36,102 bases of DNA. It comes from a virus. Positions within the stretch are counted from its first letter, which is position 1, and every line of letters begins with the position of its first letter. Below the pieces are notes generated by a model. That model worked only from the letters and a program-made list of their open reading frames with translations. It searched no databases and was not told where the DNA came from. The DNA lies in IMG/VR virus record IMGVR_UViG_3300042988_000215, positions 1 to 36,102 of that record, one strand, 5' to 3'. Shown here piece after piece: positions 187 through 30,970 of this stretch. A program made the translations under genes and the position numbers.

Positions 187-539
187 GCGATCCAGTCATT
201 CAGCTAGGTACCGTTGCCAACCTGTGGACAAGGCAGATGCACTTTGTCCGGGCCGGTGACGTTGAGCAGCCACACGACCACCACTTTGACCACCTGACGC
301 TGCTGGCGAAGGGTTCGCTGCGTGTGGCAGTGGAGGGTGTGGAGAAGGTCTTCAAAGCCCCTCAGATGATCTACATCCGCGCCAGAAAGCTGCACACGCT
401 GGTGGCACTTGAGGACGACACGCTGGCGTACTGCATCCACGCCCTGCGCGACCAAGCCGGGGAGCTGCTCGACCCGGACATGATCCCGCTGGGCGGCGAT
501 CCGATGGAGTATTCCCACCCACTGACAGCCAAGGAATAA
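183..539 (+). CDS. Cupin-like small protein
   Basis: This 118-residue protein starts at GTG in a GTGA overlap with the gene before it. The His-rich stretch HDHHFDHLTLLAKGSLRV (about residues 31-48) resembles the first metal-binding cupin motif. A later region around MIYIRARKLHTLVAL supplies a further His, as in the second motif. Cupins are small beta-barrels that often bind a metal through His and Glu. Single-domain cupins occur among phage late genes, where their role is unknown. The fold assignment comes from the motif only, and a catalytic activity cannot be claimed. Confidence 0.7.
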   Translation: MSDPVIQLGTVANLWTRQMHFVRAGDVEQPHDHHFDHLTLLAKGSLRVAVEGVEKVFKAPQMIYIRARKLHTLVALEDDTLAYCIHALRDQAGELLDPDMIPLGGDPMEYSHPLTAKE

Positions 540-541
540 CC

Positions 542-880
542 ATGGAAATTCTGTACACCATCGCCGCCTACTACGTCCTGCTCTGCGTCCTGTGGATGTT
601 CTTCCTTGCCGTCATGAGCCTTGACCGAGCCTACGCAGATGACAAGCTGACTTGGGTTTGCAAGCCGTTCGCCTACTCTGTGTTGATCATCGGGCTGGTC
701 ATCGACATCGCCGCAAACGTGCTGGTGACCCTGCTGTTTCTTGACCTGCCAGCCGAGCTGACCGTATCCGAGCGCCTAACCCGCTACAAGGACCATTACA
801 GCGACTGGCGGCACACGGTAGCAGTCTGGTTCGCCAAGCACTTTCTGGACCCGTTTGACAGGCGCGGCAAGCACATCTGA
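542..880 (+). CDS. Small membrane protein
   Basis: This 112-residue protein starts two bases after the cupin stop. It has an N-terminal hydrophobic segment (about residues 4-27) and a second one (about 41-68), followed by a charged C-terminal tail rich in Arg, Lys, His and Asp. The likely topology is two membrane helices with a cytoplasmic tail. I recognise no family. It sits at the end of a small operon just before a promoter-like gap and the tail fibre. A lysis-related role is possible, but the real holin candidate lies further downstream. Confidence 0.65.
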   Translation: MEILYTIAAYYVLLCVLWMFFLAVMSLDRAYADDKLTWVCKPFAYSVLIIGLVIDIAANVLVTLLFLDLPAELTVSERLTRYKDHYSDWRHTVAVWFAKHFLDPFDRRGKHI

Positions 881-883
881 TCA

Positions 884-917
884 TTGTTGCTTACACGTAA
901 ACGCGGTACACTACCGC
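884..917 (+). promoter_or_regulatory. Candidate late promoter with CTTAC-type element and inverted repeat
   Basis: The gap before the tail-fibre gene holds TTGTTG (884-889), a 17-base spacer and TACACT (907-912), a weak sigma70-like pair. Inside the spacer is TGCTTACACGTAA (888-900), closely related to elements at 6654-6665 and 12620-12631. A perfect inverted repeat, GCGGTA-CAC-TACCGC (903-917), overlaps the presumed -10 and could be an operator or a 5' hairpin. The promoter call is inference from these patterns. Confidence 0.45.
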
Positions 918-936
918 AACTTCCTTGGAGTAGCCA

Positions 937-2292
937 ATGGCTCGCGCACAGCTAACAAACAACGCCGTCACGACCTTGGCGGCAGATATCACCAACGTGG
1001 CCACGTCCATGACTGTGGCTGCCGGTACGGGCAGCAAGTTCCCCTCCAGCGGGTACTTCTACGTCACCCTGCTCGACAGCGGTAATGTCCCCGAAGTGGT
1101 CAAGGTCACCACCCGCGCTGTGGACGTGTTCACCATCGTCCGGGCCCAAGACGGCACGTCAGCTCGCGCGTTCGCCGCCTCTGGCGCTGGCACCCGCGTT
1201 TCCCTTAACCTGACCGCCGCCGTGATCAACGAGCTGGCCCCGCTGGACAGCCCAACCTTCACCGGCCCTGTAACAGCATCGTCCTTCGTCGGTAACGTGA
1301 CGGGTAACGTGACCGGCAACGTGACTGGAAACCTGACGGGAACGGCGTCTTCGGCAACTGCTGCGACCACAGCGACCAACCTCGCTGCCGGGGCCATTGG
1401 GGCGCTTCCGTACCAGTCCGCTGTCGGAACCACAGGCTTCTTGGGCCTTGGCACCGCCGGGCAGATGCTGGCGTCGCAGGGCGTTGATCTACCACCAGTG
1501 TGGACCACAACGACTCAGTACGCCGAAGTCAAGGGGCTTGGCGCAACCGTTGCCGCCAATGCGATGACGGTTACCGCCCCGGCGCTTACGCTTGACTTCC
1601 GCAGCACCACGGCCAACAGCGGCGCTGTCACCACCGTCAAGGGCGCTCCTGCCGATCTGGTTATCCCAAGCGGCGCAACTCTGGGCACCTCCAACGCAGT
1701 CGCATCCCGCCTGTACATCCTTGCGATAAACAACGCCGGGACCATCGAACTGGCTGTCATCAACCAGTACAACTCTGTCAGCACCACCAGCGGCGGCATC
1801 GTACTCGACGAGACTGGCCTGATCAGCACGACAGCCATATCCGCTGCCGCAGACTCCCCCAACGTGGCGTACTCAACCACGGGCCGCTCCAATGTGGCGT
1901 ACCGAGTCATTGGTTTTGTGGACTCCACGCAGACCACGGCTGGCACTTGGGCGGCGGCCCCGTCTGCGGTTCAAGGCGCTGGCGGTCAGGCAACTGCCGC
2001 AATGCTGTCCCTTGGCTATGGGCAGACGTGGTACGCAACTTCCCGTGGCGCCGGTACCACCTACTACAACACCACAGGGCGACCCATCTATGTTGTGGGG
2101 CTCATTGGCAACAACGTGGACTCCGCTGTAACCCTGTCCCTGACCGTGGGCGGTGTGACTGTTTCCGACTGCGGGTATGGGCGCGCGGGGTCTGGCTCCA
2201 ACGGGCGGGGGCACGCATCAGGTGTTGTACCTCCGGGGGCCAGCTACATCTGGTCTGGGACTATGTCCGGTGGGTCAGCGGAACTTCGTTAA
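937..2292 (+). CDS. Tail fibre / receptor-binding-type structural protein
   Basis: This 451-residue protein has the composition of phage tail fibres: Ala, Thr, Gly, Ser and Val rich, with almost no Cys. Residues 100-112 contain LDSPTFTGPVTAS, a signature common in side-tail-fibre proteins. It is followed by four copies of GN(V/L)T, a short beta-repeat usually found in fibre shafts. The Gly-rich C-terminal domain (about 350-451) probably forms the receptor-binding or trimer tip. A good ribosome site (GGAG) precedes ATG 937. No intramolecular chaperone or enzyme motif is visible. The fibre accessory gene follows directly. Confidence 0.8.
   Translation: MARAQLTNNAVTTLAADITNVATSMTVAAGTGSKFPSSGYFYVTLLDSGNVPEVVKVTTRAVDVFTIVRAQDGTSARAFAASGAGTRVSLNLTAAVINELAPLDSPTFTGPVTASSFVGNVTGNVTGNVTGNLTGTASSATAATTATNLAAGAIGALPYQSAVGTTGFLGLGTAGQMLASQGVDLPPVWTTTTQYAEVKGLGATVAANAMTVTAPALTLDFRSTTANSGAVTTVKGAPADLVIPSGATLGTSNAVASRLYILAINNAGTIELAVINQYNSVSTTSGGIVLDETGLISTTAISAAADSPNVAYSTTGRSNVAYRVIGFVDSTQTTAGTWAAAPSAVQGAGGQATAAMLSLGYGQTWYATSRGAGTTYYNTTGRPIYVVGLIGNNVDSAVTLSLTVGGVTVSDCGYGRAGSGSNGRGHASGVVPPGASYIWSGTMSGGSAELR
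1291..1338 (+). repeat. Four 12-base tandem repeats encoding GN(V/L)T
   Basis: Four consecutive 12-base units encode GNVT, GNVT, GNVT and GNLT within the tail-fibre gene. The units differ at synonymous positions, so the repeat is kept at protein level. Such repeats form the shaft of trimeric fibres and can change copy number by slippage. Confidence 0.85.
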
Positions 2293-2301
2293 GGAACCAC
2301 C

Positions 2302-2571
2302 ATGCACTACAAAGCCCCAGACAACACCGTCCATTTTCTGGACGACAGCCGCTTCTCCTACCTCCTGCCGGAAGGCTCGGTGCCGATCACCGACGAGGAA
2401 GTTGAGGCACTCAAGCCCGTGCCGCCTGCGCCCACCTACGCAGACCTGCGCCGCGCCGAATACCCGCCGCTGGTTGACCTGATCGACGGGCTGGTGAAGG
2501 ACGATGCCGCCCAGATTCAGGCATACAAAGACGCCTGCTTGGCTGTCAAGGCCAAGTATCCGAAGCCATGA
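2302..2571 (+). CDS. Tail-fibre accessory protein, XkdW/assembly-like
   Basis: This 89-residue protein follows the fibre gene with a good ribosome site (AAGGA). The N-terminal half (FLDDSRFSYLLPEGSVPIT) resembles small proteins that follow fibre genes. The C-terminal half, with AEYPPLVDLIDGLVKDD and then a short helix ending in KAKYPKP, matches the XkdW-like pattern of small tail proteins. It may help fold or attach the fibre. The assignment rests on motif resemblance and on position. Confidence 0.65.
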   Translation: MHYKAPDNTVHFLDDSRFSYLLPEGSVPITDEEVEALKPVPPAPTYADLRRAEYPPLVDLIDGLVKDDAAQIQAYKDACLAVKAKYPKP

Positions 2572-2981
2572 TCCTGTCGCCCATTGAGCGCAAGGTAGCC
2601 AGCGTCATTCTGGCCGACGTGACCGCAGTGCGGATCATGATGGCTATCGTCGCGTTGCTGCTTTGCGTCGGGTTTGTCACCGCCCACACACAGGGCGGGG
2701 CCTACGACACCATGATCCGGTTTGCCAGCCAAGAGGCGTGGGCCGCTGTGTTTGGTTTCTACGGCGTAGCCAAGCTACTAATTGCGTTCCACCTGCACAA
2801 GGGTGTGCCGAAACCAATTCTGTTTCTTTTCATCCTGTTCGGGCTGTCGCTCTGGCTTTTCACATTCTTCAGCTTCACAGGTAATCAGGTACGCCCCTTC
2901 GGCGCAGCAGACCTCACCGTACTGGCCATGTGTATTGGCGAAGTATGGGTCGGGGCCCACACATTGGCGGATGCGGAATGA
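2568..2981 (+). CDS. Polytopic membrane protein at the start of the lysis cassette
   Basis: This 137-residue protein begins in an ATGA overlap with the fibre accessory gene. It shows about four hydrophobic segments: about residues 20-40, 61-76, 81-103 and 112-131. It has no long soluble domain. It could be a holin, an antiholin or another membrane protein of the lysis cassette. The gene at 4113 matches a known holin family better, so this one is left as a membrane protein. Its stop overlaps the start of the next gene (ATGA). Confidence 0.65.
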   Translation: MILSPIERKVASVILADVTAVRIMMAIVALLLCVGFVTAHTQGGAYDTMIRFASQEAWAAVFGFYGVAKLLIAFHLHKGVPKPILFLFILFGLSLWLFTFFSFTGNQVRPFGAADLTVLAMCIGEVWVGAHTLADAE

Positions 2982-3385
2982 GCTTCGAGCAGCTTGACGT
3001 CGTTGAAAAAGTTGCCGTAGGCACCAGCACTCTTGGGCTGATCGCCGTTGCTGGCATGAAAGCCATCAGCTTCTTTCGGGCGGAGAAGGCCGGGCAGACG
3101 AGTTCTGCTGCCACAGCGGAGCAGTTTGAAGCCTTCCGCCAGTCCATCAAGGCCATGTCGCTGGAGATGGAGCTGCTGCGCGCGGAGTTCCACAAGATGG
3201 ACCGCAAGGTGCACATGCAGCAGCGCACGATCACCAAGCTGGAGATGGCAGTCCACAAGCTGATTGACTTGCTGGCGATGCACGACATCAGCATCCCGGC
3301 GCCGCTGCGCGAAGAGATTGAAGAACTCATCAAGCCAGAGCCAACCACCGGGCGCAGGGCTACAGACAAGCAAGCAGAGCAGTGA
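2978..3385 (+). CDS. Coiled-coil protein with one membrane segment
   Basis: I chose ATG 2978 (135 residues) because it overlaps the preceding stop as ATGA; an upstream in-frame start at 2930 lies inside the previous gene. Residues about 12-30 are hydrophobic, probably one membrane helix. The remainder is a long helical region rich in Glu, Lys, Met and Gln (about 45-105), then a charged tail. This layout resembles spanin-like or Rz-like proteins but lacks their clear features, so no function is assigned. It lies between a membrane protein and the DUF5675 gene. Confidence 0.65.
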   Translation: MSFEQLDVVEKVAVGTSTLGLIAVAGMKAISFFRAEKAGQTSSAATAEQFEAFRQSIKAMSLEMELLRAEFHKMDRKVHMQQRTITKLEMAVHKLIDLLAMHDISIPAPLREEIEELIKPEPTTGRRATDKQAEQ

Positions 3386-3828
3386 GCCGCAACCTAACCA
3401 TATTCAAGGACACCATGCACATCGAAGTCCAACGAGTACCCGGCGGCGTCACATGCACTCTGGGCAAGCTGTACATAGACAGCGTGGAGTATTGCTACAC
3501 GCTGGAAGACATCGTCCGCCCGAACGGAGAGAAGGTTTATGGAGAGACTGCTATCCCTGCCGGTGTATATCGGGTTGTCATTACCCACAGCAATCGTTTT
3601 GGTTGCGATATGCCGCTACTTCTGGAAGTCCCGAATTTCACCGGAGTCCGAATCCACCCCGGAAATTCCGACGCCGATACCCACGGGTGCATTTTGCTCG
3701 GAACACATGTCGGAGCAGACGGAGAAAGCATTACTGAATCACGAGCTGCCTATTACCGGGTATTCACCAAAATTCGGGATGCCATCGACGCGGGTGAAGA
3801 AGTCAAGATTGAGGTGAAGGACGCATGA
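3382..3828 (+). CDS. DUF5675 family protein, candidate cell-wall lysis enzyme
   Basis: This 148-residue protein starts at GTG in a GTGA overlap; ATG 3415 (residue 12) is an alternative start. The core has the DUF5675 pattern: a Gly/Pro-bounded hairpin (AIPAGVYRVVITHS), then VRIHPGN with His92 and DTHGCILLG with His101 and Cys103. A nearby His and Cys in that setting recalls the SHGC motif of L,D-transpeptidases, so a cell-wall activity is plausible. No other lysozyme, amidase or peptidase is visible in this lysis cassette. The family name is a confident match; the enzymatic role is inference. Confidence 0.75.
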   Translation: MSRNLTIFKDTMHIEVQRVPGGVTCTLGKLYIDSVEYCYTLEDIVRPNGEKVYGETAIPAGVYRVVITHSNRFGCDMPLLLEVPNFTGVRIHPGNSDADTHGCILLGTHVGADGESITESRAAYYRVFTKIRDAIDAGEEVKIEVKDA

Positions 3829-3896
3829 ACCTGTTCAACGGATTACTGATCCTGCTGATCTTCATCGTGATCGTCAGCACATCAATGAAGCTATGA
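3825..3896 (+). CDS. 23-residue membrane peptide in the lysis cassette
   Basis: A short frame begins at ATG 3825, overlapping the DUF5675 stop (ATGA), and ends at TGA 3896, overlapping the next start (ATGA). It encodes MNLFNGLLILLIFIVIVSTS followed by MKL. That is a single hydrophobic helix with a short charged end. The two exact overlaps and the membrane-like composition argue that it is translated. It could be a small pinholin-like or regulatory peptide of the lysis cassette. It is too short for most gene finders. Confidence 0.55.
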   Translation: MNLFNGLLILLIFIVIVSTSMKL

Positions 3897-4120
3897 GCCG
3901 ACTGGTCAACTTCGCCGACATCGACTTCAACGACCCACGTATCACACCGCTTATGGAACTGGCTATCCGGCGAATGATGGACATCCGAGAGCGGTACGCA
4001 TACGAAGGCCGGGACCTTGAAGCGCGCGGAGTTGGCGTTGGCATCTGGGTGACATGGAACACGCTTGTTGAGCAGTACGACCCGCGCGACGGGTCATCTT
4101 TTGGAGGTCTAAATGGATGA
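3893..4120 (+). CDS. Small soluble hypothetical protein
   Basis: This 75-residue protein starts in an ATGA overlap with the 23-residue peptide gene. It is charged, with many Arg and Asp, and contains a central helix (PLMELAIRRMMDIRERYAYE). No family is recognised. Its last codons contain the GGAGG ribosome site of the holin gene, so translation of the two is probably coupled. Confidence 0.6.
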   Translation: MSRLVNFADIDFNDPRITPLMELAIRRMMDIRERYAYEGRDLEARGVGVGIWVTWNTLVEQYDPRDGSSFGGLNG

Positions 4121-4634
4121 TTGGAAAAAGTTGCTCGGAACTGTTGCTCCTTTGCTTGGGACTGCTTTCGGTGGCCCTCTTGGTGGCGTTGCTGCTTCCT
4201 TTGTCGCTGATAAACTGGGCCTATCTGAAAAGACAGTCGCGGCAGTCACAGACGCGATTCAGGGCGGGCGGCTCACGCCTGAACAACTGGAACAGGTGAA
4301 GCTGGCAGAGATCGACTTCCAGAAGTTCTTGAAGAAGAACGATATCGATCTGGAAGCAGTGCACGCGGCGGACCGCAACAGCGCCCGCGATCTACTCAAG
4401 GCCACCGGCAGCTACGTACCGGCCACGCTCACGTTCGGCATCACCATCGGCTACTTCCTGACTCTGTTCGGCATGATGACCAAGATGTTCTCGGTGGCCG
4501 ACAGTCAGGTCATGCTGATGATGTTGGGCCAGCTGGGCACGGCGTGGGGTGTTTGCATCGCCTTCTGGTTCGGCACCACCCGCAACAGCCAAGAGAAGAC
4601 GAATCTTCTGGCTAACTCGGCACCGGCAAAATGA
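4113..4634 (+). CDS. Holin, 3TM (GTA-type) family
   Basis: This 173-residue protein matches the layout of the three-transmembrane holins first named from gene transfer agents. It has a Gly/Ala-rich amphipathic N-terminus (about residues 8-35, including TAFGGPLGGVAAS), a charged helical middle with AADRNSARDLLKATGSYVPA, and two membrane helices (about 97-119 and 133-153). The ending WFGTTRNSQEKTNLL is typical of the family. Holins form the inner-membrane lesion that times lysis. GGAGG lies just upstream of ATG 4113. The gene overlaps those on both sides. Confidence 0.85.
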   Translation: MDDWKKLLGTVAPLLGTAFGGPLGGVAASFVADKLGLSEKTVAAVTDAIQGGRLTPEQLEQVKLAEIDFQKFLKKNDIDLEAVHAADRNSARDLLKATGSYVPATLTFGITIGYFLTLFGMMTKMFSVADSQVMLMMLGQLGTAWGVCIAFWFGTTRNSQEKTNLLANSAPAK

Positions 4635-6442
4635 AAATCAGTATCGGCTCGTTCAAGGGGATGGCCCCCAAGCTGGCCCCGAACCTCATCCCTGATGAGG
4701 CGTCGCAGGTCGCCACGAACGTGCGTGTGACCTCCGGGTCGCTGCGGGCGCTGAACACGCCGTCCAAGGCGTCCACCACCATCACCCCAAGCGCGGCGTC
4801 GATCTACTCACTGGGCCCGGCGGGCGGCTCTTACATGCTGTCATGGGCAGTTGACACCGACGTGGCCCGCAGCCCGATCTCCGACTCCGAGTACCGCATC
4901 TACTACACCAACGGCACGGCCCCAAAGAAGACGAACCTGACGATGGCCTCCGGCGCCGGTATCGGCCCGTTCCCCGTGGCGGAGTACAACATGGGCGTCC
5001 CGCGCCCCACCGCCGCCCCAACAGCCGCAGCCATCGCTGGCACCAACCTTGCCGCCCCAACGACTTGGGTTTACTGCTACACCCACGTCACGCAGTTCGG
5101 TAGCACGCTGGTTGAAGAGTCAGCCCCGTCCCCCTCCGTCACCATCACGACCACAGCGGGCGCCAACCAAGACGTTCGCATCAGCGGTATCGCGGACCCG
5201 GTTACGACCACCGGGTACAACTACATCGGCAAGCGCCTGTATCGGTCCTCTGGCACCACGCTGCAGCTGGTGAGCGCCACGCTCATCCCTCTGGGAACCA
5301 CCACTTACGATGACCACTTGGGGGCCTCCGCCATCGCAGGCGACGCGCTACTCACGTCCGGGTGGCTCCCACCGGCGAACGACCTCAAGGGCATTGTCTC
5401 CCTGCCGTCGGGCACGATGGCCGCGTTCCGCGAGAACGAAATCTGGTTCTGCGAGCCGGGGTACCCCCACGCGTGGCCGGTGAAGTACATGCAGGCGCTG
5501 GAGTCGAAGATCGTGGCGATCTGGGCTTTCGGCAACAACTTGGCCGTGGCAACCCAGACCAACCCGTACGTCGGCTCCGGCGTCTACCCGGACTCGTTCA
5601 CCTTCCAGAAGATTCCGCGTCTTGAGCCGTGCGTGTCCAAGCGTTCGATGGCCGGGGACGAGACAGGCGCTATCTACGCCAGTGCAAACGGGCTTGTGTC
5701 CATCGGGCTTGGCGGCGACAGCCTGATAACCGAGTCCGTGCTGACCCGGCAGGAGTTCAACTCCTACTACCCGTACTCCATGACCGGGGCCGTGTTCGAA
5801 GGGCGGTACTACGGGTTCTACGATACCGGCTCCAACAAGCTGGGGTTCGTGTTCTCCCCGCGCGAGCAGAGCGGGATGCGGACCGTGAATATCGGCGTGT
5901 CTGCCGCAACCATCGAGCCGTTGAGCGGGCAGCTTCTGTATATCGACTCGACCAACAACGCCCTGTACTCTCTGGACCCGACCGGCACCGTGCCGATGAC
6001 CTACACATGGAAGTCCAAAGTGTTCCGCGCTCCGCAGCCGGTGAACATGGGCTACGTGCAGGTTCTGGGCCGGGAGGATTCGACCGCCGACGTCCAGTAC
6101 GCCGCCGCCGTCGCGGCATCTAACGCAGCCATTACTGCGGCCAACGCCGTCACATTCGCTACCGGGGCGCTGTACTCCGGCCTGAACGACCACGGGGCGC
6201 TCAACGAGATAGCCCTGAACGACTCCACCCTGCAGGCCCTGACCCCGTCGGTGCTGTCCACGGTGACGCTGTATGTGTACGCTGGCTCCGACCTCCGGTT
6301 CTACAAGGAGCTGGACCTGAACAAGGTGTACACCCTGCCAAGCGGGTTCAAGTCTCTGGGCTGGGAGCTGATGATCGTCGGGCAGCGCGAAGTCATGGGC
6401 ATTGAGATGGCGAACTCTGTCACCGAACTCCGGAGCAGCTGA
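4631..6442 (+). CDS. Large virion structural protein (nozzle/stabilisation-like)
   Basis: This 603-residue protein starts in an ATGA overlap with the holin gene. Its N-terminus (MAPKLAPNLIPDEASQVATN, then VRVTSGSLRAL) matches a widespread class of podovirus virion proteins that begin APKL...AQ.A.N...SG.L. The rest is beta-rich with many Tyr, Gly and Thr. It may be a propeller-like tail nozzle or connector closure protein similar in role to T7 gp12 or P22 gp10. That role is inference from size, start motif and position before the ejection proteins. No enzyme motif is seen. Confidence 0.65.
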   Translation: MKISIGSFKGMAPKLAPNLIPDEASQVATNVRVTSGSLRALNTPSKASTTITPSAASIYSLGPAGGSYMLSWAVDTDVARSPISDSEYRIYYTNGTAPKKTNLTMASGAGIGPFPVAEYNMGVPRPTAAPTAAAIAGTNLAAPTTWVYCYTHVTQFGSTLVEESAPSPSVTITTTAGANQDVRISGIADPVTTTGYNYIGKRLYRSSGTTLQLVSATLIPLGTTTYDDHLGASAIAGDALLTSGWLPPANDLKGIVSLPSGTMAAFRENEIWFCEPGYPHAWPVKYMQALESKIVAIWAFGNNLAVATQTNPYVGSGVYPDSFTFQKIPRLEPCVSKRSMAGDETGAIYASANGLVSIGLGGDSLITESVLTRQEFNSYYPYSMTGAVFEGRYYGFYDTGSNKLGFVFSPREQSGMRTVNIGVSAATIEPLSGQLLYIDSTNNALYSLDPTGTVPMTYTWKSKVFRAPQPVNMGYVQVLGREDSTADVQYAAAVAASNAAITAANAVTFATGALYSGLNDHGALNEIALNDSTLQALTPSVLSTVTLYVYAGSDLRFYKELDLNKVYTLPSGFKSLGWELMIVGQREVMGIEMANSVTELRSS

Positions 6443-6642
6443 TGGCCTCGCGCAAGTTCCAGACCGTCCCGCCGTACAACGGGAACAATGACGCCCAGCT
6501 TCTGCGGGCGCTTCAGGACGTCACCAGCTACATCACAGCGCAGGCACAGCCGGTAATCCAGCCGCTCGCCACCACCGCCACGACAGCCCAGATCATCTCC
6601 AAGGTGAACGAGATCATCGCCCGGCTGCAGGGCACACAATAA
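6442..6642 (+). CDS. Small hypothetical virion-associated protein
   Basis: This 66-residue protein begins at the A of the preceding TGA stop (TGATG), so it is translationally coupled to the large structural gene. It has no Cys and forms a probable amphipathic helix at its C-terminus (AQIISKVNEIIARLQ). I do not recognise it. It may be a small tail or head completion protein given its neighbours. Confidence 0.6.
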   Translation: MASRKFQTVPPYNGNNDAQLLRALQDVTSYITAQAQPVIQPLATTATTAQIISKVNEIIARLQGTQ

Positions 6643-6653
6643 GCTGGCATGTG

Positions 6654-6675
6654 CTTACATGTAAGTGCATAATAT
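6654..6675 (+). promoter_or_regulatory. Palindrome CTTACATGTAAG with -10-like sequence
   Basis: The 58-base gap before ATG 6701 contains the perfect 12-base palindrome CTTACATGTAAG (6654-6665), followed by CATAAT (6668-6673). The wider string TGCTTACATGTAAGTGC is nearly identical to the element at 888-904. No good -35 hexamer is seen at the usual distance, so the palindrome may bind an activator or repressor. A ribosome site (AGGAG) lies before the next start. Confidence 0.5.
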
Positions 6676-6700
6676 CGACATCATCTTCTAGGAGCTATTC

Positions 6701-6928
6701 ATGGATATCGACAAACTTCTGGCCCTCGGTTTCGACGTTGTTGCGGGTCAGATCGACCGTGAAGGCGCGAACTACGGTTTCCTGACCGCTGACGGCGCCG
6801 TGCTGACCCCGGCTGGCGAAGAACTGGTGAAGTCTCTGACCAAGAAACCGCGCAAGGGCGCAGCAGTTGTTGAAGAACCGGCGGCTGAACCTGCTCCCGA
6901 AGCTGCACCGGACGCACCGGCTGCCTGA
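6701..6928 (+). CDS. Small protein with Ala/Pro/Glu-rich tail
   Basis: This 75-residue protein follows the palindrome-containing gap and has a clear AGGAG ribosome site. The first 45 residues form a compact, probably folded part (ALGFDVVAGQIDREGANYGF). The tail (about 52-75) consists mostly of Ala, Pro and Glu and is likely disordered. I recognise no family. Being first after a probable promoter, it may be made in quantity, perhaps as a structural or decoration protein. Its stop overlaps the next start (TGATG). Confidence 0.65.
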   Translation: MDIDKLLALGFDVVAGQIDREGANYGFLTADGAVLTPAGEELVKSLTKKPRKGAAVVEEPAAEPAPEAAPDAPAA

Positions 6929-7344
6929 TGGCAGCAGTCCTTGTCTACGACTTCGAGCGCGTGCACGAGTTTGTGCGCGCCAAGACACCCATCAACATGG
7001 TGTCCGGGTCGCAGGCGATAGGGCTGGAGCGCGATGGTGAGCTGGTCGCCGGAGTGGTCTACGAAGGGTACAACGGGCACAACGTATGGATGCACGTAGC
7101 AGCGGAACCAAGCAAACGGTGGATGACCAAGGAGTACCTTCGGGCGTGCTTCTTGTACCCGTTTCTGCAGCTCAAGTGCAGCCGTGTCAGTGGGTTTGTG
7201 GAAGCGTGGAACATGGACGCGCGCAAGTTTGATGAGCACTTGGGCTTCAAGCAGGAAGCCACTCTCAAGGGGGCTGCCTCCGACGGCGGCGATGTGATTT
7301 TGTACGTCATGCGACGCGAGGAATGCAGGTATGTTAATCCCTAA
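6928..7344 (+). CDS. GNAT-like acetyltransferase-fold phage protein
   Basis: This 138-residue protein has the size and order of a GNAT fold. A central strand (LVAGVVYEGYNGHNVWMHV) is followed by a helix (MTKEYLRACFLYPF), a second strand (CSRVSGFVEAWN), and then MDARKFDEHLGFKQEATLKG, which resembles the C-terminal GNAT pattern in which a residue 'fades' into a strand ending in LGF. Such proteins sit among structural genes in many podoviruses. Substrate and activity are unknown, and it may serve virion assembly rather than acetyl transfer. Confidence 0.7.
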   Translation: MAAVLVYDFERVHEFVRAKTPINMVSGSQAIGLERDGELVAGVVYEGYNGHNVWMHVAAEPSKRWMTKEYLRACFLYPFLQLKCSRVSGFVEAWNMDARKFDEHLGFKQEATLKGAASDGGDVILYVMRREECRYVNP

Positions 7345-8239
7345 CAAACACAGCGGTTACCAGTCAGGCATTCGCCTGTACCCCGGCGGTGGCAAGGGCG
7401 GCAGCTCCGCACCTCCGCCAGACCCGCGTCTGGTCCAAGCTCAGATCGACTCGATGGGCGTCCAGAACGACGCGATCAAAGAGATCATGTCCAACACCCG
7501 CGACATGGCCCCGATCCAGAAGCAGCAGATGCAGTTCGGTCTGGACACCTCCCGCACCGCGTGGGACCAATCGCAGGCGGACCGCGAATACGCGCTGGAG
7601 CGCCGTGGGCAGCTTACCGGCCTGCAGGACCGCGCCATTAAGGACGCGGCGGACTACAACGCTGAAGGCTACCAAGAGCAGCTGGCCCAGAAAGCTGGCG
7701 AAGACGTATCCGCCGGTATGGCGCAAGCCCGTGGGCAGAGTGCCCGTGCTATGGCCGGGCGCGGCATCAGCGCGAACTCCGGCGCGGCTCTGGCGCTGGA
7801 CGCCGATCTGTCTTTGGGCGGCGCGATGCAGTCCGCAGCCGCTACCAACATGTCCCGTCAGGCAGCCAAGGAGATGGGCTGGAAACTGAGCGACCGCGCG
7901 AGCAACATGCTGGCCGGTTACCCCAACATGGGAATGAGCGCCACCGGCGCGGGCGCTGGCTTCGGCGGCCTTGGCCTTGGGTACGCAAACACCGGGCTCT
8001 CCGGTATGAACTCTGGCTGGAACTCCGCAGGCGGGATGGGCGGGTCTATGGGCTCTAACGCAACTGGCATGTACAACGCGCAGTCGCAGTACAGCCTAGG
8101 AAACGCAAAGCTGGCGCAGTCTGACTCTGATCCGTTCGGGGCCATGCTCGGTATGGCGGCTGGTGCAGCAGGCACGGCCTTCGGCGGCCCGCTCGGCGGC
8201 ATGGCCGCCTCTGCCATGTTCGGCGCACCTAAAAAGTAG
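7331..8239 (+). CDS. Internal virion (ejection) protein, T7 gp14-like position
   Basis: This 302-residue protein overlaps the GNAT-like gene by 14 bases. After a Gly/Pro-rich start it has a long helical region rich in Gln, Ala, Asp and Arg (about 30-185), then a Gly/Met/Asn-rich segment (about 195-260) and a hydrophobic Gly-rich C-terminus containing TAFGGPLGGMAAS. This layout fits the smallest ejection protein of podoviruses, which enters the outer membrane during DNA delivery. Two larger ejection-type proteins follow, as in T7. Function is assigned by layout and gene order. Confidence 0.7.
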   Translation: MLIPNKHSGYQSGIRLYPGGGKGGSSAPPPDPRLVQAQIDSMGVQNDAIKEIMSNTRDMAPIQKQQMQFGLDTSRTAWDQSQADREYALERRGQLTGLQDRAIKDAADYNAEGYQEQLAQKAGEDVSAGMAQARGQSARAMAGRGISANSGAALALDADLSLGGAMQSAAATNMSRQAAKEMGWKLSDRASNMLAGYPNMGMSATGAGAGFGGLGLGYANTGLSGMNSGWNSAGGMGGSMGSNATGMYNAQSQYSLGNAKLAQSDSDPFGAMLGMAAGAAGTAFGGPLGGMAASAMFGAPKK

Positions 8240-8248
8240 GAACCAACC

Positions 8249-9778
8249 ATGAGCTTCAATAACAGTTTCGTGTCCGCCCTCCCGATGGGGGCCAAGGCGT
8301 ACCAAGACTACCTAGCGAACCAGCGCGCCGACGAAGAACTTGGGTTGCGCAAAGCCGCCGCCGCGCGGGACGCGGAGCGCTGGGACCAAGAGAAGTCCGA
8401 CCGCGATAGCGTGGACGCAGCCTTCCGGGGATACGCTGGCTTGGAGTCCAACGGCGTTGTGGCAAACAACAATACCGGTATCTCCGACCAAGGGCTGGCG
8501 GCGCTGAACCGCTCTGGCGGCAAGGGCATGGTGACCGAGGCCATGCGTATCGCCAACGAAGAGAACGCTGGCATGGGGCTCGCCCCCCAGTACCAGATGC
8601 CCGCCGAAGGCGCGGCGCCGCAATACACGACCCGTACTGCTACCGGGCTGGAGCGCAACGCCGCTATGAGCAAGATTGCCGCCGCGAAGCGGGACGCTGG
8701 CATGATGCGCGACCTCGGCAAGGAACGAGTCGGCCTTGAGTTCGACGAAGGCTACCGCACGCACATTAAGGCGTTCAACGATATGAAGCCGGAAGCTCGC
8801 GCTGCGATCATGGAGAAGGCCACAGCGGACCACGGGTTCCCGCTAAACATGGTCCCTTCCTCCGGCAAAGACAAAAACGGCAAACCTACGTACACAACGT
8901 GGATCGAGGGCAAGCCGCGTTTCCAGCTCGGCGAAGCCGAAGTAGCGGACATCTACGCAGCGCAGCAAATGATGGCTACCCACCCCGATCTGGCCCGCGC
9001 CCGCTTGGAGAACAGCACGAAGAATGTGCGTGAACTGTTCAAGCAGTACGTTGAGCTGACGGATAAGCAGCTGGATACGAACAACCAAGCTACGCGCTAC
9101 GGTCACTTGGACGCCAACGACGCAGCCCGCCTCGGGCTGGAGGGCCAACGCGTTAAGCTGGACAAGGCCCGCGCAGAGCGCGAGAAGTGGTCCATCGTCG
9201 GCGCCACGGACGACAACAAGGGGCTGCTGTACTTTGACCAGTCCACGGGTAAGACGGAGATCAAACCGCTCCCGCCCGGCACCGACGCGAAGGGCTTGTT
9301 CGCCAAGATAACGGGCGCGAGCAGCAAGCCATCGCCGGAGTTCGAGAAACTGCCGGAGGACGGCGTCAATGTGAAGGACGCCAGAGGCAACGTGTACACG
9401 TATCGTGAGGGCGTTCCCCTCCTGCAGGGCGGCGTCCCGCCGAGCCAGCAGTCGTCGTTCTACACCAAGAACGGGTTCCCGGCGCAAGCCGAGTCGATGG
9501 TACGGTGGCTGCCGGGCGGCAGGCATGTGCAGGTCCCCGGTCTGGATGGCGCCTACGATATGGCTAACCCGTCCGATGTTGCCGCCGTCCGCGAGGCTAT
9601 TACAGCCACCGGCGCGCGTCTAGTGGAAGGGCAGGAGGCAGAAGCCCGTGGGCGTGGCGTGCTGGACCCGCGCGACGCGCGCGTTGCTGCGCAACCTGAT
9701 CCGCTGGCGCCGTACCGAGCCAACGCTATGGGGCTCCGCCGTTCTGCGCAGCAGCGCGGCCAAAACGTAGGGAACTAA
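8249..9778 (+). CDS. Internal virion (ejection) protein, T7 gp15-like position
   Basis: This 509-residue protein has a clear ribosome site (AGGA) and follows the first ejection protein by nine bases. It is mostly helical and hydrophilic, rich in Ala, Arg, Glu, Lys and Asn (about residues 1-310), with a less helical second half. It has no membrane segment, no signal peptide and no catalytic motif that I recognise. Size and position match the middle protein of the podovirus ejectosome, which builds the periplasmic tunnel. The assignment is by gene order. Confidence 0.65.
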   Translation: MSFNNSFVSALPMGAKAYQDYLANQRADEELGLRKAAAARDAERWDQEKSDRDSVDAAFRGYAGLESNGVVANNNTGISDQGLAALNRSGGKGMVTEAMRIANEENAGMGLAPQYQMPAEGAAPQYTTRTATGLERNAAMSKIAAAKRDAGMMRDLGKERVGLEFDEGYRTHIKAFNDMKPEARAAIMEKATADHGFPLNMVPSSGKDKNGKPTYTTWIEGKPRFQLGEAEVADIYAAQQMMATHPDLARARLENSTKNVRELFKQYVELTDKQLDTNNQATRYGHLDANDAARLGLEGQRVKLDKARAEREKWSIVGATDDNKGLLYFDQSTGKTEIKPLPPGTDAKGLFAKITGASSKPSPEFEKLPEDGVNVKDARGNVYTYREGVPLLQGGVPPSQQSSFYTKNGFPAQAESMVRWLPGGRHVQVPGLDGAYDMANPSDVAAVREAITATGARLVEGQEAEARGRGVLDPRDARVAAQPDPLAPYRANAMGLRRSAQQRGQNVGN

Positions 9779-9780
9779 AC

Positions 9781-12615
9781 ATGCCCATCAGCCTTGACGA
9801 GTACGAAGCCCAGTTCGGCGGGGCAGCGCGTTCCCCAGTCCCTCAAGGTCAGCAACGAGCGTACGGCTGGGGGGATCGCCTTGGCGCGTCGGTTGACTCC
9901 GCGCAGGCCGGGCTTCTTGGCGTCGGCGAGGCAATGGGGATCGACAGCTGGGCCGACGCCCGTCGTCGTAACCAGTTCGAGGGGGACTACGTCCGGCAAG
10001 CCTCTATCCGCGACACCGGCGCCCCTACAAGTTTCGGCGACACGTTCTCCAGCCCAAGTAACTTCGCCAAGGGCGTAGCCGGGCTCGCCATCGATTCTGC
10101 TCCGCAGCTGGCCACGTCCTTGGCAGCTGGTGTTGTTGGTGGGTCGGTGGCAGGGTTTGGCACCCTTGGCCGTCTGGGGCTTGCCGCCGCCGCAGGCGCT
10201 CCGTTCAACATGGGCGACATCCTGCAGAACCAGCGTTCGGAAGCCGGTACGACAGACCTGTTGTCCGCTGCGGCGCTGACGGTGCCGTACACAGCCGCCG
10301 ACATGCTTGGCCTTGACGCTGCGCTGGCGCGCGGCAGCCTGATGAAGTCAGGCATCCGGTATCTGGACGACATGAAGGGGCCCAAGGGGTATCTCGCGCG
10401 CGGCGGCGTCAACACCGGTATCAACTCGTTGGCCGAAGGTACGGGCGAAACGCTGCAGGAGTTCGCTAACCAAGCAGGTCGCATCGCAGTTAACCCCGAC
10501 CAGACGATGTTCAACCCGGAAGCCAACGACCGGTACCTTGAGTCGTTTGGTGGTGGCGCTCTGCTCGGCGGCGGGTTGGCCGCGCCTTTCAGTATGGGGC
10601 GCAGCGCAGGCTACATCCAGAAGCCCGGCGAGCAGACCCCGGCGGCGGCCTCACCTGTGGTGGACATGCTGGCGCCCAATGCACCCCCGGCGGCGCCAGC
10701 CGCGCCGAACTACGGTGACCCGGTCCCGTACGCACCGCTGACCGAAGCAGAGCTTGCCATGCTGAAGGCCGAAAACCTTCCGGGCCAACTCGGGGAAGGC
10801 GCCCCCAACCGCGCCAACGCGTACGGCAACGCCATCGACTTCGAACCCGGAGTGGGGGAGAACGCCGGTCTGTTTGCCGATCCAGCTCCTACAACCGGCG
10901 CACGGCGCGGGCTTGTCACCGAGATGTCCCCGCTCCAGCAGCGCATTGACCAGAACCTCGGCATCGGCGGTCCGCGCGTAGCGCAGGGTGATTACGTCAA
11001 GCAGTTCACTTCTGCCGCCAATGAGCCTACAGGTGTCATGCGCACCGGAACCGGCGACAACAGCGGCAACGAAGTCATGGACACCGCCCTAGAGGCTACG
11101 CAGCGAAGCGCCGGTATCCTTGATCAGGAGCGCATTCTGGCGGAGCAGGCGAAGGCCGACGCCGCGCGCAAGGTAGCCAGCAAGACCCGCGCCAAAGACC
11201 TGACGGGCCGCGCCACCGACAAAGCCGCCGAGACTGTAGAGATGCTCGACAAGGCGATGGCCGACCGCAAGATCAGCACACAGGAACACACCGACGCGGT
11301 GAACGGCATCGCCATCGCCAAGTCGCCAAAGCAAGTTCAGGACGCGTACAAAGCAGCCCGCGCCCTCGTTGAAGGGAAACAGAGTGCCGCCCCCGCCGCC
11401 CCGTCTAACCAAGCAGCAGCGCCTGCTGGCCAAGCACCTGCAACTGCCGCCGCGCCAACTGGTGTATCTGCAGCTACTGGACAACCAGCCCCGGCAGTTC
11501 AACCTGCAGCTGCATCTAGCACTCCAGCCGCGCCTGCCGCAGTAGCCCCCACACCGCCCGCCGGTGCCAAGGGCACGAAAGCTGGTGCGTCCGTCGTCAA
11601 CAAGCTGACCGGCAAGACCGCCGTCATCGGCGGGTCCATCGACTTCTCTATGCTGAAGATGGCGCTTGAGCAGCTGGACCCACGCCTGCACCACGCCGTT
11701 CGGCTGACGCTCGGCATCGACAAAGACGGCAACAAGCTGGACAAACCCCTGTCCGCGAAGGCAGCTGCCGCGCAAGCCGGTATGGGCGAGAACAATGGCG
11801 CTCTGGTCAGCCGCGCATCCAACGCGCTTGGCATCGACAAAGCTGCGCGCGACCGCTTCACAGCATCCGACGCGATGGCCAACGAGTCCGCCGAAGGCGA
11901 CATCGGAGATGGTTCCGAAGCACCAGTGAAGCGTCTGGCTGAAGAAACGGTTGACCGCACCGAAGCCGACGACAAAGACCTCACGTTCAACCAAGCCGGT
12001 ATGGGTGTAGTTGGCAACGTAGGCCAATCGCAGGGCAAAGTGGAGTCTGCCGGTAAAGGGCTGATCACTGCGCAGCCGTGGTACAAGATCGTTCGTGAGA
12101 AGGGGTTGGACGGGCTGAAACCAGTTGAGTTAGGAGCGGTTGCTCACGAAGCAACACGGTACGCCGACAACCCGAACCCCGAGAACAAGGCGGCGCTTTC
12201 CGCTATCATGGACGCAATCCGCGCTGTACAGCGTGACCCTGAAAAACGCAAGGAGTGGCAACGTGGCTGGGACAAAGCAGAAAACGGTGGCACCGTGGAC
12301 CGGAAATCCGATGGAGGGTCTGAGGAAGGGGCCTCGGGGAGCGGTCCTGATGGCGGACTTTCCGACGCTGATGGAGAGGATAACGGGGAAGCCAGCGCCG
12401 GACGAACTGAAGAAGCTGGCAGCCGAACACCAGTCGTCACTGTCAAGCCCCGCCGGGTCATCCAAAAATCCAAAGCCGCCGACGGGCCAATCGCAGTAAG
12501 CGTCAAGACCACGAACGGCACGCTTGAGATCAAGGACGCCCAGAAGGCAGTTGATAAGCTGCAGGACACCATCGAGCGGTTCCGCAATCTTATTGCCTGC
12601 TTGGGCAGGGCCTGA
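9781..12615 (+). CDS. Large internal virion (ejection) protein, T7 gp16-like position
   Basis: This 944-residue protein has an AGGGA ribosome site two bases after the previous stop. Residues about 95-185 and 255-285 are Gly/Ala-rich and hydrophobic, likely to insert in the inner membrane. The middle (about 440-600) is helical, then very rich in Ala, Pro and Thr (about 535-600), a flexible linker. The C-terminal part carries a folded segment (around WYKIVREKGLDGL) and an acidic Ser/Gly-rich stretch (about 840-870). No lytic transglycosylase is visible. It is smaller than many gp16-type proteins, and the enzymatic domains may be in the gene at 17452. Confidence 0.7.
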   Translation: MPISLDEYEAQFGGAARSPVPQGQQRAYGWGDRLGASVDSAQAGLLGVGEAMGIDSWADARRRNQFEGDYVRQASIRDTGAPTSFGDTFSSPSNFAKGVAGLAIDSAPQLATSLAAGVVGGSVAGFGTLGRLGLAAAAGAPFNMGDILQNQRSEAGTTDLLSAAALTVPYTAADMLGLDAALARGSLMKSGIRYLDDMKGPKGYLARGGVNTGINSLAEGTGETLQEFANQAGRIAVNPDQTMFNPEANDRYLESFGGGALLGGGLAAPFSMGRSAGYIQKPGEQTPAAASPVVDMLAPNAPPAAPAAPNYGDPVPYAPLTEAELAMLKAENLPGQLGEGAPNRANAYGNAIDFEPGVGENAGLFADPAPTTGARRGLVTEMSPLQQRIDQNLGIGGPRVAQGDYVKQFTSAANEPTGVMRTGTGDNSGNEVMDTALEATQRSAGILDQERILAEQAKADAARKVASKTRAKDLTGRATDKAAETVEMLDKAMADRKISTQEHTDAVNGIAIAKSPKQVQDAYKAARALVEGKQSAAPAAPSNQAAAPAGQAPATAAAPTGVSAATGQPAPAVQPAAASSTPAAPAAVAPTPPAGAKGTKAGASVVNKLTGKTAVIGGSIDFSMLKMALEQLDPRLHHAVRLTLGIDKDGNKLDKPLSAKAAAAQAGMGENNGALVSRASNALGIDKAARDRFTASDAMANESAEGDIGDGSEAPVKRLAEETVDRTEADDKDLTFNQAGMGVVGNVGQSQGKVESAGKGLITAQPWYKIVREKGLDGLKPVELGAVAHEATRYADNPNPENKAALSAIMDAIRAVQRDPEKRKEWQRGWDKAENGGTVDRKSDGGSEEGASGSGPDGGLSDADGEDNGEASAGRTEEAGSRTPVVTVKPRRVIQKSKAADGPIAVSVKTTNGTLEIKDAQKAVDKLQDTIERFRNLIACLGRA

Positions 12616-12619
12616 TAAA

Positions 12620-12631
12620 CTTACCTGTAAG
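12620..12631 (+). promoter_or_regulatory. CTTACCTGTAAG inverted repeat before gene 12636
   Basis: The 20-base gap between two genes consists largely of CTTAC-CT-GTAAG, placed four bases before ATG 12636 where a ribosome site would be expected. Read on the - strand it is TGCTTACAGGTAAG, the same core as the elements at 888-900 and 6654-6665. It may be an operator that also affects translation of the next gene. Confidence 0.45.
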
Positions 12632-12635
12632 CATC

Positions 12636-13004
12636 ATGGCCACAACACCCCTGCGCGTCTCCAGTATCGAAGACCTAGCCCTTGAGCTGGGTGCTTCTGT
12701 CAAGCGCGACGACGGCAGCGTGTTCAACTCGTCTGGCCGCAGCGGTGTAGTCCGCCTTCCCAAGCCGGTGGCCGCGCCCGAACCGGCGCCAGCTCCTGTC
12801 CAAGACACCGGGCACGAAAAGCTGACCGCCGCTCTGGCAGAGATGATGAGCAAGCTGCATGTGCAGCAGCCGTCCGCCCCGGTGGTCCATGTTCCGCCAG
12901 CGCAGGTAGTAGTTCAACCCCAGCAGCGTGTCCTTGACTGGACGTTCACGTTTGAGCGCAACGCTGATGGAACGATTAAATCAATCCGGGCCAAGGCCAA
13001 CTAA
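12636..13004 (+). CDS. Hypothetical phage protein with Pro-rich middle
   Basis: This 122-residue protein starts just after an inverted repeat and lacks a clear ribosome site. It has a short folded start, a Pro/Ala/Val-rich central stretch (about 43-95), and a C-terminal beta-strand pair (LDWTFTFERNADGTIKSIRAK) found at the end of many small phage proteins. No function is known to me. It opens the block of structural and modification genes between the ejection proteins. Confidence 0.65.
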   Translation: MATTPLRVSSIEDLALELGASVKRDDGSVFNSSGRSGVVRLPKPVAAPEPAPAPVQDTGHEKLTAALAEMMSKLHVQQPSAPVVHVPPAQVVVQPQQRVLDWTFTFERNADGTIKSIRAKAN

Positions 13005-13014
13005 GGAGTAACCA

Positions 13015-13443
13015 ATGGCTTCAGTTAACTTCACCAACCTCACGCGCAATCTGGCGCAGGCACGACACAACTTCAGCAGCGACACACTCAAGGTTTTGCT
13101 GGTGTCCAGCGTACCGTCGGAGGCGAACATCGACGCATGGGTTTCCCGCGCTGACGTGACCAACGAGATTACTGGCACAGGCTACACCGCTGGCGGCATC
13201 GCGCAGGCGTACACATTCGACGCCATCGACACGACAAACAACCGCCAGCCGATCACGCTGACCAACATCACCAACGGGTGGACCACAGCATCGTTCTCGG
13301 CGCTGGGCGCGATCATCTACAAGAACAGCGGTACGTCCAGCACGGACTACCTGATCTCGTTCGTGGACTTCGCAGGCACGATCACCTGCACGGCTGGCAA
13401 CTTCTCGATCACCTACAGCACACCGCTGTACATCACTCGATAA
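13015..13443 (+). CDS. Minor virion protein with beta-sandwich layout
   Basis: This 142-residue protein has a strong ribosome site (AAGGAG). It matches a common class of phage structural proteins: an N-terminal helix, then HNFSSDTLKVLLVSS, a GTGYTAGGIA turn, and a series of strands ending in a region about ions or colour (SFVDFAGTITCTAGNFSITYS). These are usually found with tail fibre or capsid decoration genes. It is Thr, Asn and Ser rich with no enzyme motif. Its exact place in the virion is unknown. Confidence 0.7.
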   Translation: MASVNFTNLTRNLAQARHNFSSDTLKVLLVSSVPSEANIDAWVSRADVTNEITGTGYTAGGIAQAYTFDAIDTTNNRQPITLTNITNGWTTASFSALGAIIYKNSGTSSTDYLISFVDFAGTITCTAGNFSITYSTPLYITR

Positions 13444-13447
13444 GACG

Positions 13448-14380
13448 ATGTCCATCAAGCACTTCTACTCGCAGACGGTTGCGGACGGGACGGCAACGTC
13501 CGTCGTTCGCCCAAGCGATTGGAATAGCAACCACCAGATGGTCTACAACCTGTCGGGCAACACGCTCGGCAGTTCGCAGATCAGCGGCGCTGATGTTATC
13601 TTCGAGGGTGGCAACAACGTCACCCTGAGTGCGGATACTGCGAATAGCAAGCTCATCTTCAGCGGTGCTGCGGGTGGCGGTGGCGGCGCTGCAACGGTGG
13701 GTGGGGCGGAGTTGTTCCCGTTGGGTGCGAACACGGCGTTCTCCACGATGGGCCAAAACTCCCTCTACTTGCAGCGGTTCATCTGCCAGAGCAACGTCAG
13801 CTTCAACAACATTGAGCGCCGGGCGTCAATATCAACAGTGTCGAGTACCAACTCGCAAGTTGCGGCGCACACCTATGACTACGGGCTGTACAGCCGAGGC
13901 ACGGGGACAAACAACACGCGGTACGAATTGGTGGCGTCGTCTCGCCTGTACCTGCAAGCGAGCTTCAACAGCAACACCGCTGCGGGGTACACCATCAGCC
14001 AAGGTGCGGCGAGTTTCACGACAACTTCTGGCGGGACGGCGGTCATGTCCGCGCTGTCTGGCTTCAAGCACTTCTACTTCCCGTTCACATCCACCTTGAC
14101 TATGGGCGGAGAGTACGCGCTTGCTATGCGCATGAGTTCAGCCACAACGGTCGGAACTTCTCCGCTGCGTATCGGGATGAAGGAACTCTCGCAGTACACC
14201 AACTTGTCAGTCGGCAAGCTGTACGCCACCACTGCACTGGTGAGCAACGCATCGTTTGTTGGCGACTTCGCGCAGGGCGTGTACTCGGCAACGTCGAGCA
14301 ACCTGCCTGCAAACATCGCCATGAGCGGCTTGACCAACGCGGTGTCTCAGAACCGCATGTACATCCAATTTGAAGTTTAA
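13448..14380 (+). CDS. Fibre-like structural protein
   Basis: This 310-residue protein begins with a motif common to many phage fibre or decoration proteins (TSVVRPSDWNSNHQMVYNLSG, shown here only in part as RPSDWNS). It continues with GNNVTLSADTANSKLIF, a Gly-rich hinge (GAAGGGGGAA, about 74-83), then a Ser/Thr/Asn-rich beta domain to the end. The hinge separates an attachment part from a distal domain. The ribosome site is weak and only four bases separate it from the previous stop, so the two are likely co-translated. It is a second candidate for receptor contact. Confidence 0.7.
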   Translation: MSIKHFYSQTVADGTATSVVRPSDWNSNHQMVYNLSGNTLGSSQISGADVIFEGGNNVTLSADTANSKLIFSGAAGGGGGAATVGGAELFPLGANTAFSTMGQNSLYLQRFICQSNVSFNNIERRASISTVSSTNSQVAAHTYDYGLYSRGTGTNNTRYELVASSRLYLQASFNSNTAAGYTISQGAASFTTTSGGTAVMSALSGFKHFYFPFTSTLTMGGEYALAMRMSSATTVGTSPLRIGMKELSQYTNLSVGKLYATTALVSNASFVGDFAQGVYSATSSNLPANIAMSGLTNAVSQNRMYIQFEV

Positions 14381-14389
14381 GGAGTAGAC

Positions 14390-15528: not shown

Positions 15529-15529
15529 T

Positions 15530-16066: not shown

Positions 16067-16068
16067 GA

Positions 16069-24991: not shown

Positions 24992-25012
24992 CTGTCCCCC
25001 GACAAGAAAAAA

Positions 25013-25297: not shown

Positions 25298-25315
25298 CTG
25301 GAAACTCCTGAGTGG

Positions 25316-25355: not shown

Positions 25356-25366
25356 CGTATCGGGGG

Positions 25367-26568: not shown

Positions 26569-26596
26569 TTGGTTTCCTTTAGTTGGGGCGATGATG

Positions 26597-26974: not shown

Positions 26975-27002
26975 GGTTGGTTTCTCCTTGGTTGGGATAT
27001 GT

Positions 27003-27030: not shown

Positions 27031-27070
27031 GCTGCGGCGGAAATAAATTTTCGATTTAGGGTGACAACTT

Positions 27071-30968: not shown

Positions 30969-30970
30969 GA

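Follow-up and report, generated by a model that had tools for sequence, protein, structure and literature searches.

Paired GTWAG half-sites at predicted promoters: probable dispersed operators on both arms of a putative temperate podovirus and its relatives

The 36-kb virus record analysed here, referred to below as the window, has its late arm on the plus strand and its early arm on the minus strand, and it carries a family of short elements, each made of two GTWAG half-sites, which are likely to be the dispersed operators of one phage-encoded regulator, most likely a repressor that silences both arms. Our computations resolve this element together with its spacing rules and show that it is enriched between genes, conserved at syntenic gaps and coincident with −10-like hexamers. 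The case for the element itself is strong and that for repression is moderate; we infer that a single protein, encoded by the phage, acts as the repressor. In the proposed mechanism, each operator would be a pair of half-sites, either inverted with 2 bp between them or direct with 3 bp between them, placed on a sigma70-like promoter, where it would either occupy the spacer between −35 and −10 or cover the start site directly beyond the −10. With a repressor bound there, host RNA polymerase would be blocked at many promoters of the early and the late genes alike and the prophage would stay silent; loss of the repressor would open both arms. Judged from sequence, we regard these elements as real, conserved and functional-looking operators of the dispersed kind.

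Regarding the phage itself, the internal virion protein gene (4631–6442) shows about 30% identity to Bcep22-like, PEp14-like and related podoviruses, and since these genomes are mostly 57–63 kb long, the window probably covers only part of a genome. An integrase and an excisionase-like gene are present, for which reason the phage is probably temperate, and we take it to be a temperate member of the Bcep22/PEp14 structural lineage of podoviruses. By the internal virion protein, the closest relatives are the contigs G001 (42 kb) and G002 (68 kb), both 85% identical, followed by G006c41 (locus L129), a 62.7-kb contig within a Geobacteraceae metagenome-assembled genome (MAG), at 59%, and by the 26.8-kb viral contig G007 (L051), at 44%. 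A further contig, G008 (53.8 kb), was recovered by a blind palindrome scan described below. Window positions 9781–12615 have no close relatives among viral contigs or phages, and positions 500–13000 have no near DNA match among phages.

Some features of these genomes merit mention in their own right. G002 (L011, L012, L043, L044) is a mosaic, with an early arm 100% identical to window 16751–36102 and a late arm of the G001 type; one block matches window 12802–17249 at 99.5%, and the match elsewhere is 76–90%. This composition suggests recent recombination or a mixed assembly, and if G002 is not an assembly chimera, one early-gene set lives with both element subtypes. The DarB-like gene of the window (17452–21894, 1480 aa) is strongly shortened relative to those of its relatives, which span about 14 kb in BcepIL02, JC1 and PEp14 and encode 2821 aa in G006c41. 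The early arm of G001 includes a Pfam Amidoligase_2 match (L009, 8319–10415, minus strand), an unusual phage cargo. In addition, G001 has several TTGACAGTTG-like repeats at about 11950–12360 of L009, in mostly non-coding DNA near the divergent centre of the genome, which are possible origin iterons or stacked promoters.

The original prediction had located three elements in short gaps just before genes, and both the positions, at 888–900 (plus), 6652–6664 (plus) and 12633–12621 (minus), and the setting are borne out, with gene starts at 937, 6701 and 12636 following the three elements (gaps 1, 2 and 3 below). Their palindromic nature also stands, and for that very reason the assignment of the third to the other strand carries no meaning. 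Exact TGCTTACANGTAA occurs three times in the window and not once in 100 dinucleotide shuffles, exact CTWACNNGTWAG occurs four times against a shuffle mean of 0.01, and CTWACNNGTWAG with at most one mismatch occurs seven times against 1.06 expected; the shuffle counts for TGCTTACANGTAA and CTWACNNGTWAG rule out a chance origin. There are seven intergenic copies distributed over both arms, four of them (17379, 27015, 31850 and 34890) beyond the three first described (Table 1). A role in late transcription only, as had been supposed, and hence a regulon restricted to the late arm, is contradicted by the early-arm (minus) copies at 27015, 31850 and 34890 and by the presence of copies on both arms of the relatives.

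Table 1. Elements, associated sequence features and candidate regulators in the window.
Feature	Position	Strand	Remarks
Element 1, TGCTTACACGTAAACG	888–903 (core 890–901)		inside 17-bp spacer TTGTTG/TACACT, before tail-fibre-like gene 937–2292
Sigma70-like promoter TTGTTG-17-TACACT around element 1	884–912	+	−35 at 884–889, −10 at 907–912; predicted from sequence
Element 2, TGCTTACATGTAAGTG	6652–6667 (core 6654–6665)		2 bp 5' of CATAAT (6668–6673), ahead of gene 6701–6928
Element 3, core CTTACCTGTAAG	12618–12633 (core 12620–12631)		just 5' of ATG 12636
Direct repeat CTAAC-ACG-CTTAC	17379–17391		immediately 3' of TACAAT, ahead of DarB-like gene 17452–21894
Perfect palindrome CTAACAGGTTAG	24352–24363		within gene 21884–24991; family membership uncertain
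Small XRE/HTH_3 (Cro-like) protein, candidate regulator	25013–25297	−	Pfam HTH_3; AlphaFold pLDDT 79.6
Direct repeat GTTAG-TCT-GTTAG	27015–27027	−	heads early operon 26974→21884 with HTH gene 25013
Two N5-spaced inverted repeats	29767–29781, 29823–29837		integrase–xis gap; held apart from the family
PrtN/Xis-like protein	29909–30166	−	phrog_1300 excisionase; Pfam PyocinActivator
Element GTTAACGTGTTAG	31850–31862		before exonuclease-like gene 31144–31818 (minus)
Perfect palindrome CTAACACGTTAG	34890–34901		upstream of 34629–34817 and DNA polymerase 32725–34632 (minus)
Winged-helix-like protein, weak candidate	34926–35243	−	sub-threshold Pfam hits

The CTTAC-N5-GTAAG sequence at 29823, which had been proposed as a relative of these elements, is indeed present, but the kinship was not upheld: with its N5 instead of N2 spacing and its place, along with the partner at 29767, in the integrase/xis-like gap, it was rejected as a member and is probably unrelated to the family. 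Adjoining these two repeats and upstream of the integrase, TGTGACAA-type repeats (two direct and two inverted) occupy window 29690–29745; they may serve as arm sites for integrase/Xis or as an operator of the integrase gene.

The unit of the family is the GTWAG half-site, which is arranged either as a palindrome, CTWAC-N2-GTWAG, or as a direct repeat, GTWAG-N3-GTWAG, the best palindromic form being TGCTTAC-N2-GTAAGCA. Both spacings are sharply preferred: across five phages there are 22 inverted pairs at gap length 2 and at most 3 at any other length from 0 to 8, and 12 direct pairs at length 3 and at most 5 at any other, these counts including G008, which was picked because blind-scan matches led to it. 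Because the half-site consensus was built from the window and G001, a more independent test is provided by G006c41, G007 and G008. An unbiased search of all 4-mer dyads in the 39 intergenic regions of the window and G001 returned ribosome-binding and start patterns and then the element, with CGTGTTAG and GTTA-N4-GTTA found in 8 regions each, against 4–5 regions for the top dyad of each of 20 shuffles.

The search for further copies, which the original prediction had called for, revealed intergenic enrichment in both the window and its relatives. In four phages, with 12.7 kb of intergenic and 155 kb of coding DNA as delimited by a home-made codon-usage gene caller that is poor on foreign contigs, inverted pairs with at most one mismatch number 23 between genes and 23 within them (p=2e-14), and direct pairs number 11 and 1 (p=5e-12). 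Three scrambled half-site controls gave no intergenic enrichment in the same four phages; of the spacing controls, CTWAC-N1-GTWAG was mildly enriched (4 intergenic, 3 coding, p=1e-3) and CTWAC-N4-GTWAG marginally so (3 and 6, p=0.03). Dyad discovery in the DNA-polymerase relatives (about 58% identical) and in Atu_ph08 and PBC5 yielded nothing clearly above shuffles. Different proteins might bind the direct and the inverted form.

The placement of the elements relative to promoters is what favours repression. For this comparison, 32 palindromic elements from five phages were oriented by their downstream gene; the set takes in palindromes with at most one mismatch in the core and at most three in the 16-mer that lie mostly outside genes and have a gene start within 200 bp. 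At fixed offsets, a −10-like hexamer matching at least 5/6 positions accompanies 11 of the 32 elements, where 1000 shuffles gave 2.4 on average and 8 at most, and one matching at least 4/6 accompanies 19 (null mean 12.2, P=0.007); the other 13 have no hexamer of at least 4/6 at the expected offsets. Two settings recur. In the first, the element fills the spacer and the −10 comes after it, as in TTGACA-CACGCTTACAGGTAAGCA-TATAAG of G008 (18-bp spacer) and TTGTTG-CTAACGCGTAAGCAACA-TATAAT of G007 (17-bp spacer; outside the 32-element set); in the second, the −10 precedes and the element covers the start site, as in GTATAATG-TGCTTACACGTAAGCA of G008. The clearest predicted promoters are TTGACA-18-TATAAG (G008), TTGTTG-17-TATAAT (G007) and TTGACG-17-TATATA (G001), and in the window element 3 overlaps the end of the promoter-like TTGCCT(12593–12598)-17-TAAACT(12616–12621). 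Overlap with predicted sigma70-like promoters occurs either within the spacer or at +1. The use of host RNA polymerase, also part of the original prediction, is consistent with these predicted sigma70-type promoters; none of the window proteins scanned was recognised as a phage RNA polymerase.

A repressor is preferred because both promoter settings would block RNA polymerase and because the copies lie on both arms of a putatively temperate phage. An unlikely alternative is that the elements are activator sites at which an early phage protein recruits or remodels host RNA polymerase for the late genes, as could be supposed from the three sites first described, all on the late arm ahead of structural or late genes, and from the poor −35 boxes of several promoters. 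However, the early arm has copies too, the elements stand at varying distances from the −10 and in some cases downstream of it, and several promoters, such as TTGACA-18-TATAAG in G008, come close to consensus. Activation of the MerR type takes place at promoters with spacers of 19–20 bp, which the readable spacers of 17–18 bp do not fit. It is quite improbable that some or all copies are stoperators, at which a bound repressor would stop elongating polymerase within operons; the copies are dispersed, they occupy short gaps within co-directional operons, and two exact inverted copies lie inside genes (window 24352 and G008 30733), yet the elements have the palindromic symmetry that stoperators lack, and −10-like sequences coincide with 11 of the 32.

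Turning to conservation, four related phages retain an element at the syntenic gaps, with half-sites that drift between CTTAC and CTAAC and with changes in their arrangement. The exact window motif is absent from the nearest relatives G001 and G002 because their gaps have diverged and yet keep elements built from the same half-sites: in the alignment of G001/G002-type gaps, the flanking genes align well, the gaps diverge, and each holds a related element (GTAAG-CGT-GTTAG in gap 1, CTAAC-GT-GTTAG in gap 2 and CTAAC-GCA-CTAAC in gap 3). At gap 1, the syntenic copies of element 1 are at 29581 in G001 and 55622 in G006c41, and the window and these two contigs share a promoter-like TTG(T/A)TG-17-TA(C/A)ACT with the element in the spacer, the match being TTGATG-17-TAAACT in both G006c41 and G001. 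At gap 2, element and −10 are nearly identical in the window (tgCTTACATGTAAGtgcataat) and G006c41 (ttgCTTACATGTAAGtgcataat), and the gap 3 relatives are direct-repeat versions (G001 42002 and G007 24130). Elements stand in many gaps of G006c41 and G007, and in G001, G006c41 and G007 they are also found around the gene preceding the major head gene, the latter assigned by phrog_267, and after the major head gene.

Over the wider lineage, gap 2 could be read in 101 loci, of which 9 have an element there and 92 do not. The positives comprise every locus with at least 44% identity (the window, L004, L005, L129, L051 and L165, of which L004 and L005 share the gap 2 stretch and L051 and L165 are the same contig), G008, and L080 and L147, whose elements look like chance; the elements across relatives use different half-sites. 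When the A1 loci of 15 kb or more were screened for palindromes alone, L126, L129, L140 and L149 stood out, and only L129 has the window motif. Another lineage member, L126, repeats a palindrome of its own, CTTACCT-N4-AGGTAAG, which is present in 4 of 10 intergenic regions.

These exchanges of form bear on a reading to which we give the slightest credence, namely that the elements are structural signals in RNA or DNA, such as a terminator, a translation signal or a partition site. They are palindromes of 12–16 bp, and some lie near start codons (window 12620, G008 49603 and 51554). However, gaps that hold a palindrome in one phage hold a direct repeat in another, a change that a hairpin would not tolerate, and a hairpin or terminator was rejected on this ground; in addition, the two-base centre would be too tight for a good hairpin, no T-run follows the listed sites, and a partition site would not need promoters.

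The motif also finds its own lineage. A scan of the viral contig collection with TGCTTAC-NN-GTAAGCA gave 79 stretches, 18 of which carry homologs of core head genes, against none of 80 stretches found with the reversed pattern (this control matched 99 stretches, and its figures are from the 80 listed). Any homolog of a window, G001, G006c41 or G007 protein (E≤1e-15) was present in 19 of the 79 and in 3 of the 80. Extra copies with at most one mismatch occur at 0.160/kb in the lineage stretches, at 0.006/kb in the other matches, and at 0.001/kb for the control motif in the control stretches. In G008, sites are spread throughout both arms, including gap 2, the position before the major head gene, and 29754, the syntenic counterpart of window 27015. 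The intergenic fractions of blind matches (20/21 in the lineage, 51/60 in the others) carry little weight because the gene caller is poor on foreign contigs, with control sites also intergenic in 37 of 80 cases.

As to the protein involved, and in agreement with the original proposal, one regulator very probably binds the sites, which lie at predicted sigma70-type promoters. Host factors can bind short palindromes within promoters, and the phage could be exploiting the sites of a host regulator; we see only a slim chance of this, as the half-sites drift along the phage lineage and the 3.7-Mb MAG of G006c41 has, outside the phage contig, 5 pattern matches versus 6 of the backwards control. A host regulon (SOS/LexA or other) was therefore rejected for this one MAG, and the lack of excess makes a phage-encoded binding protein likely.

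Among the candidates of the original prediction, the PrtN-like protein at 29909 has lost its place as the regulator: its phrog_1300 match and its position beside the integrase make it a poor candidate, and it is probably an excisionase, whereas activators of the PrtN type act on promoters through P-boxes. The Cro-like protein at 25013 is a possible regulator of the elements; its AlphaFold model has a 434/P22-repressor-like fold with a weak E, and its gene lies in the operon headed by the element at 27015. Of the two element-bearing contigs compared for this gene, G008 encodes a syntenic homolog, and in G006c41 no homolog was found. For the weak winged-helix-like candidate at 34926, blastp (E≤1e-3) gave no match to G001, G006c41, G007 or G008. 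A winged-helix pair, G001 5763 and G006c41 23176, shares a common neighbourhood and a C-terminal motif, has a poor structure model, and was not found in G008. Among the proteins scanned, which included some of those of the relatives, no CI-type repressor was seen. Operators of the lambda CI/Cro type would cluster between divergent repressor and cro-like genes; G006c41 has one site (9356) in its divergent gap. In addition, G006c41 (L161) has a ribbon-helix-helix (CopG-like) gene at 11212–11547 with the element-like TGTTTACCTGTAACCA shortly upstream; it is a possible regulator with autoregulation, an idea that draws on the 8-bp spacing of the direct repeats and on this one genome.

The family has parallels among known systems. 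A report on P1 describes 22 dispersed C1 operators (PMC8546580). Like these, the window family has many motif copies genome-wide on both arms, and it shares the overlap with promoters (11 of 32 elements with a −10 of at least 5/6, predicted); P1 has one prophage repressor and 17-bp asymmetric operators, whereas the window family consists of GTWAG pairs, inverted or direct, and its repressor is putative. For the Cluster A mycobacteriophages (L5), many stoperators genome-wide and a motif that drifts between relatives have been described (PMC6550527). Many sites and motif drift are likewise traits of the window family, but stoperators lack symmetry and mostly face the same way relative to transcription, whereas the elements here are palindromic and associated with promoters. 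KorA and KorB operators at promoters are reported for the IncP plasmid RK2 (PMC11790492), where short KorA operators at core promoters and a small global repressor resemble our proposal; RK2 differs in being a plasmid system with the co-repressor KorB, and no KorA or KorB family hit was found among the proteins scanned.

Closer in virion lineage, the Burkholderia phages JC1 and BcepIL02 and the Erwinia phage PEp14 also have repeated intergenic palindromes, which differ in sequence from those of the window (ATGGTTCGATAATCGAACCAT-like; GTTG-N10-AACA-like), with one palindrome in JC1 and BcepIL02 and another in PEp14; in these phages a cI-like or XRE gene is annotated next to the switch. Palindromes lie beside the cI-like gene in JC1 (L049; 5717 and 5772) and BcepIL02 (L046; 6790), before the major head gene in JC1 (28585), BcepIL02 (30217) and PEp14 (L047; 8152), and, in PEp14, at the gap that matches window gap 2 (23102). 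In JC1, 9 of 10 copies of GGTT-N10-ACCA are intergenic under the deposited annotation. In BcepIL02, GGTT-N10-ACCA or GGTT-N9-AACC occurs at 10 places, 8 of them between genes, and in PEp14 GTTG-N10-AACA or TGTT-N9-ACAA occurs at 7, with 5 between genes. These palindromes are leads, since for JC1 and PEp14 the data that were tested had also served to choose the motifs, and the BcepIL02 motif alone is not above shuffles. In the JC1 paper (PMC9144972), a term search showed the words operator and palindrom- to be absent, and none of the papers searched for the motif letters contains them.

If the reading as repressor operators is true, these phages would practise a distributed form of prophage silencing, in which the repressor directly gates each late operon and there is no single switch to mutate. 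We extend this only tentatively to the lineage as a whole, where temperate podoviruses may be silenced, late virion operons included, by dispersed operators in place of one switch region; in the clade of the window, one non-classical repressor may read GTWAG pairs in both the inverted N2 and the direct N3 form, and the operator set may drift together at fixed gaps so that relatives are immune to different repressors. Under the repressor reading, the elements would provide a readable operator set for following changes of immunity specificity between relatives, in the manner of the work on mycobacteriophage stoperators, in podoviruses of Gram-negative bacteria. Moreover, the motif finds further members of the lineage in metagenomes, as the 18 of 79 blind matches illustrate, and it offers a clear route to the putative repressor.
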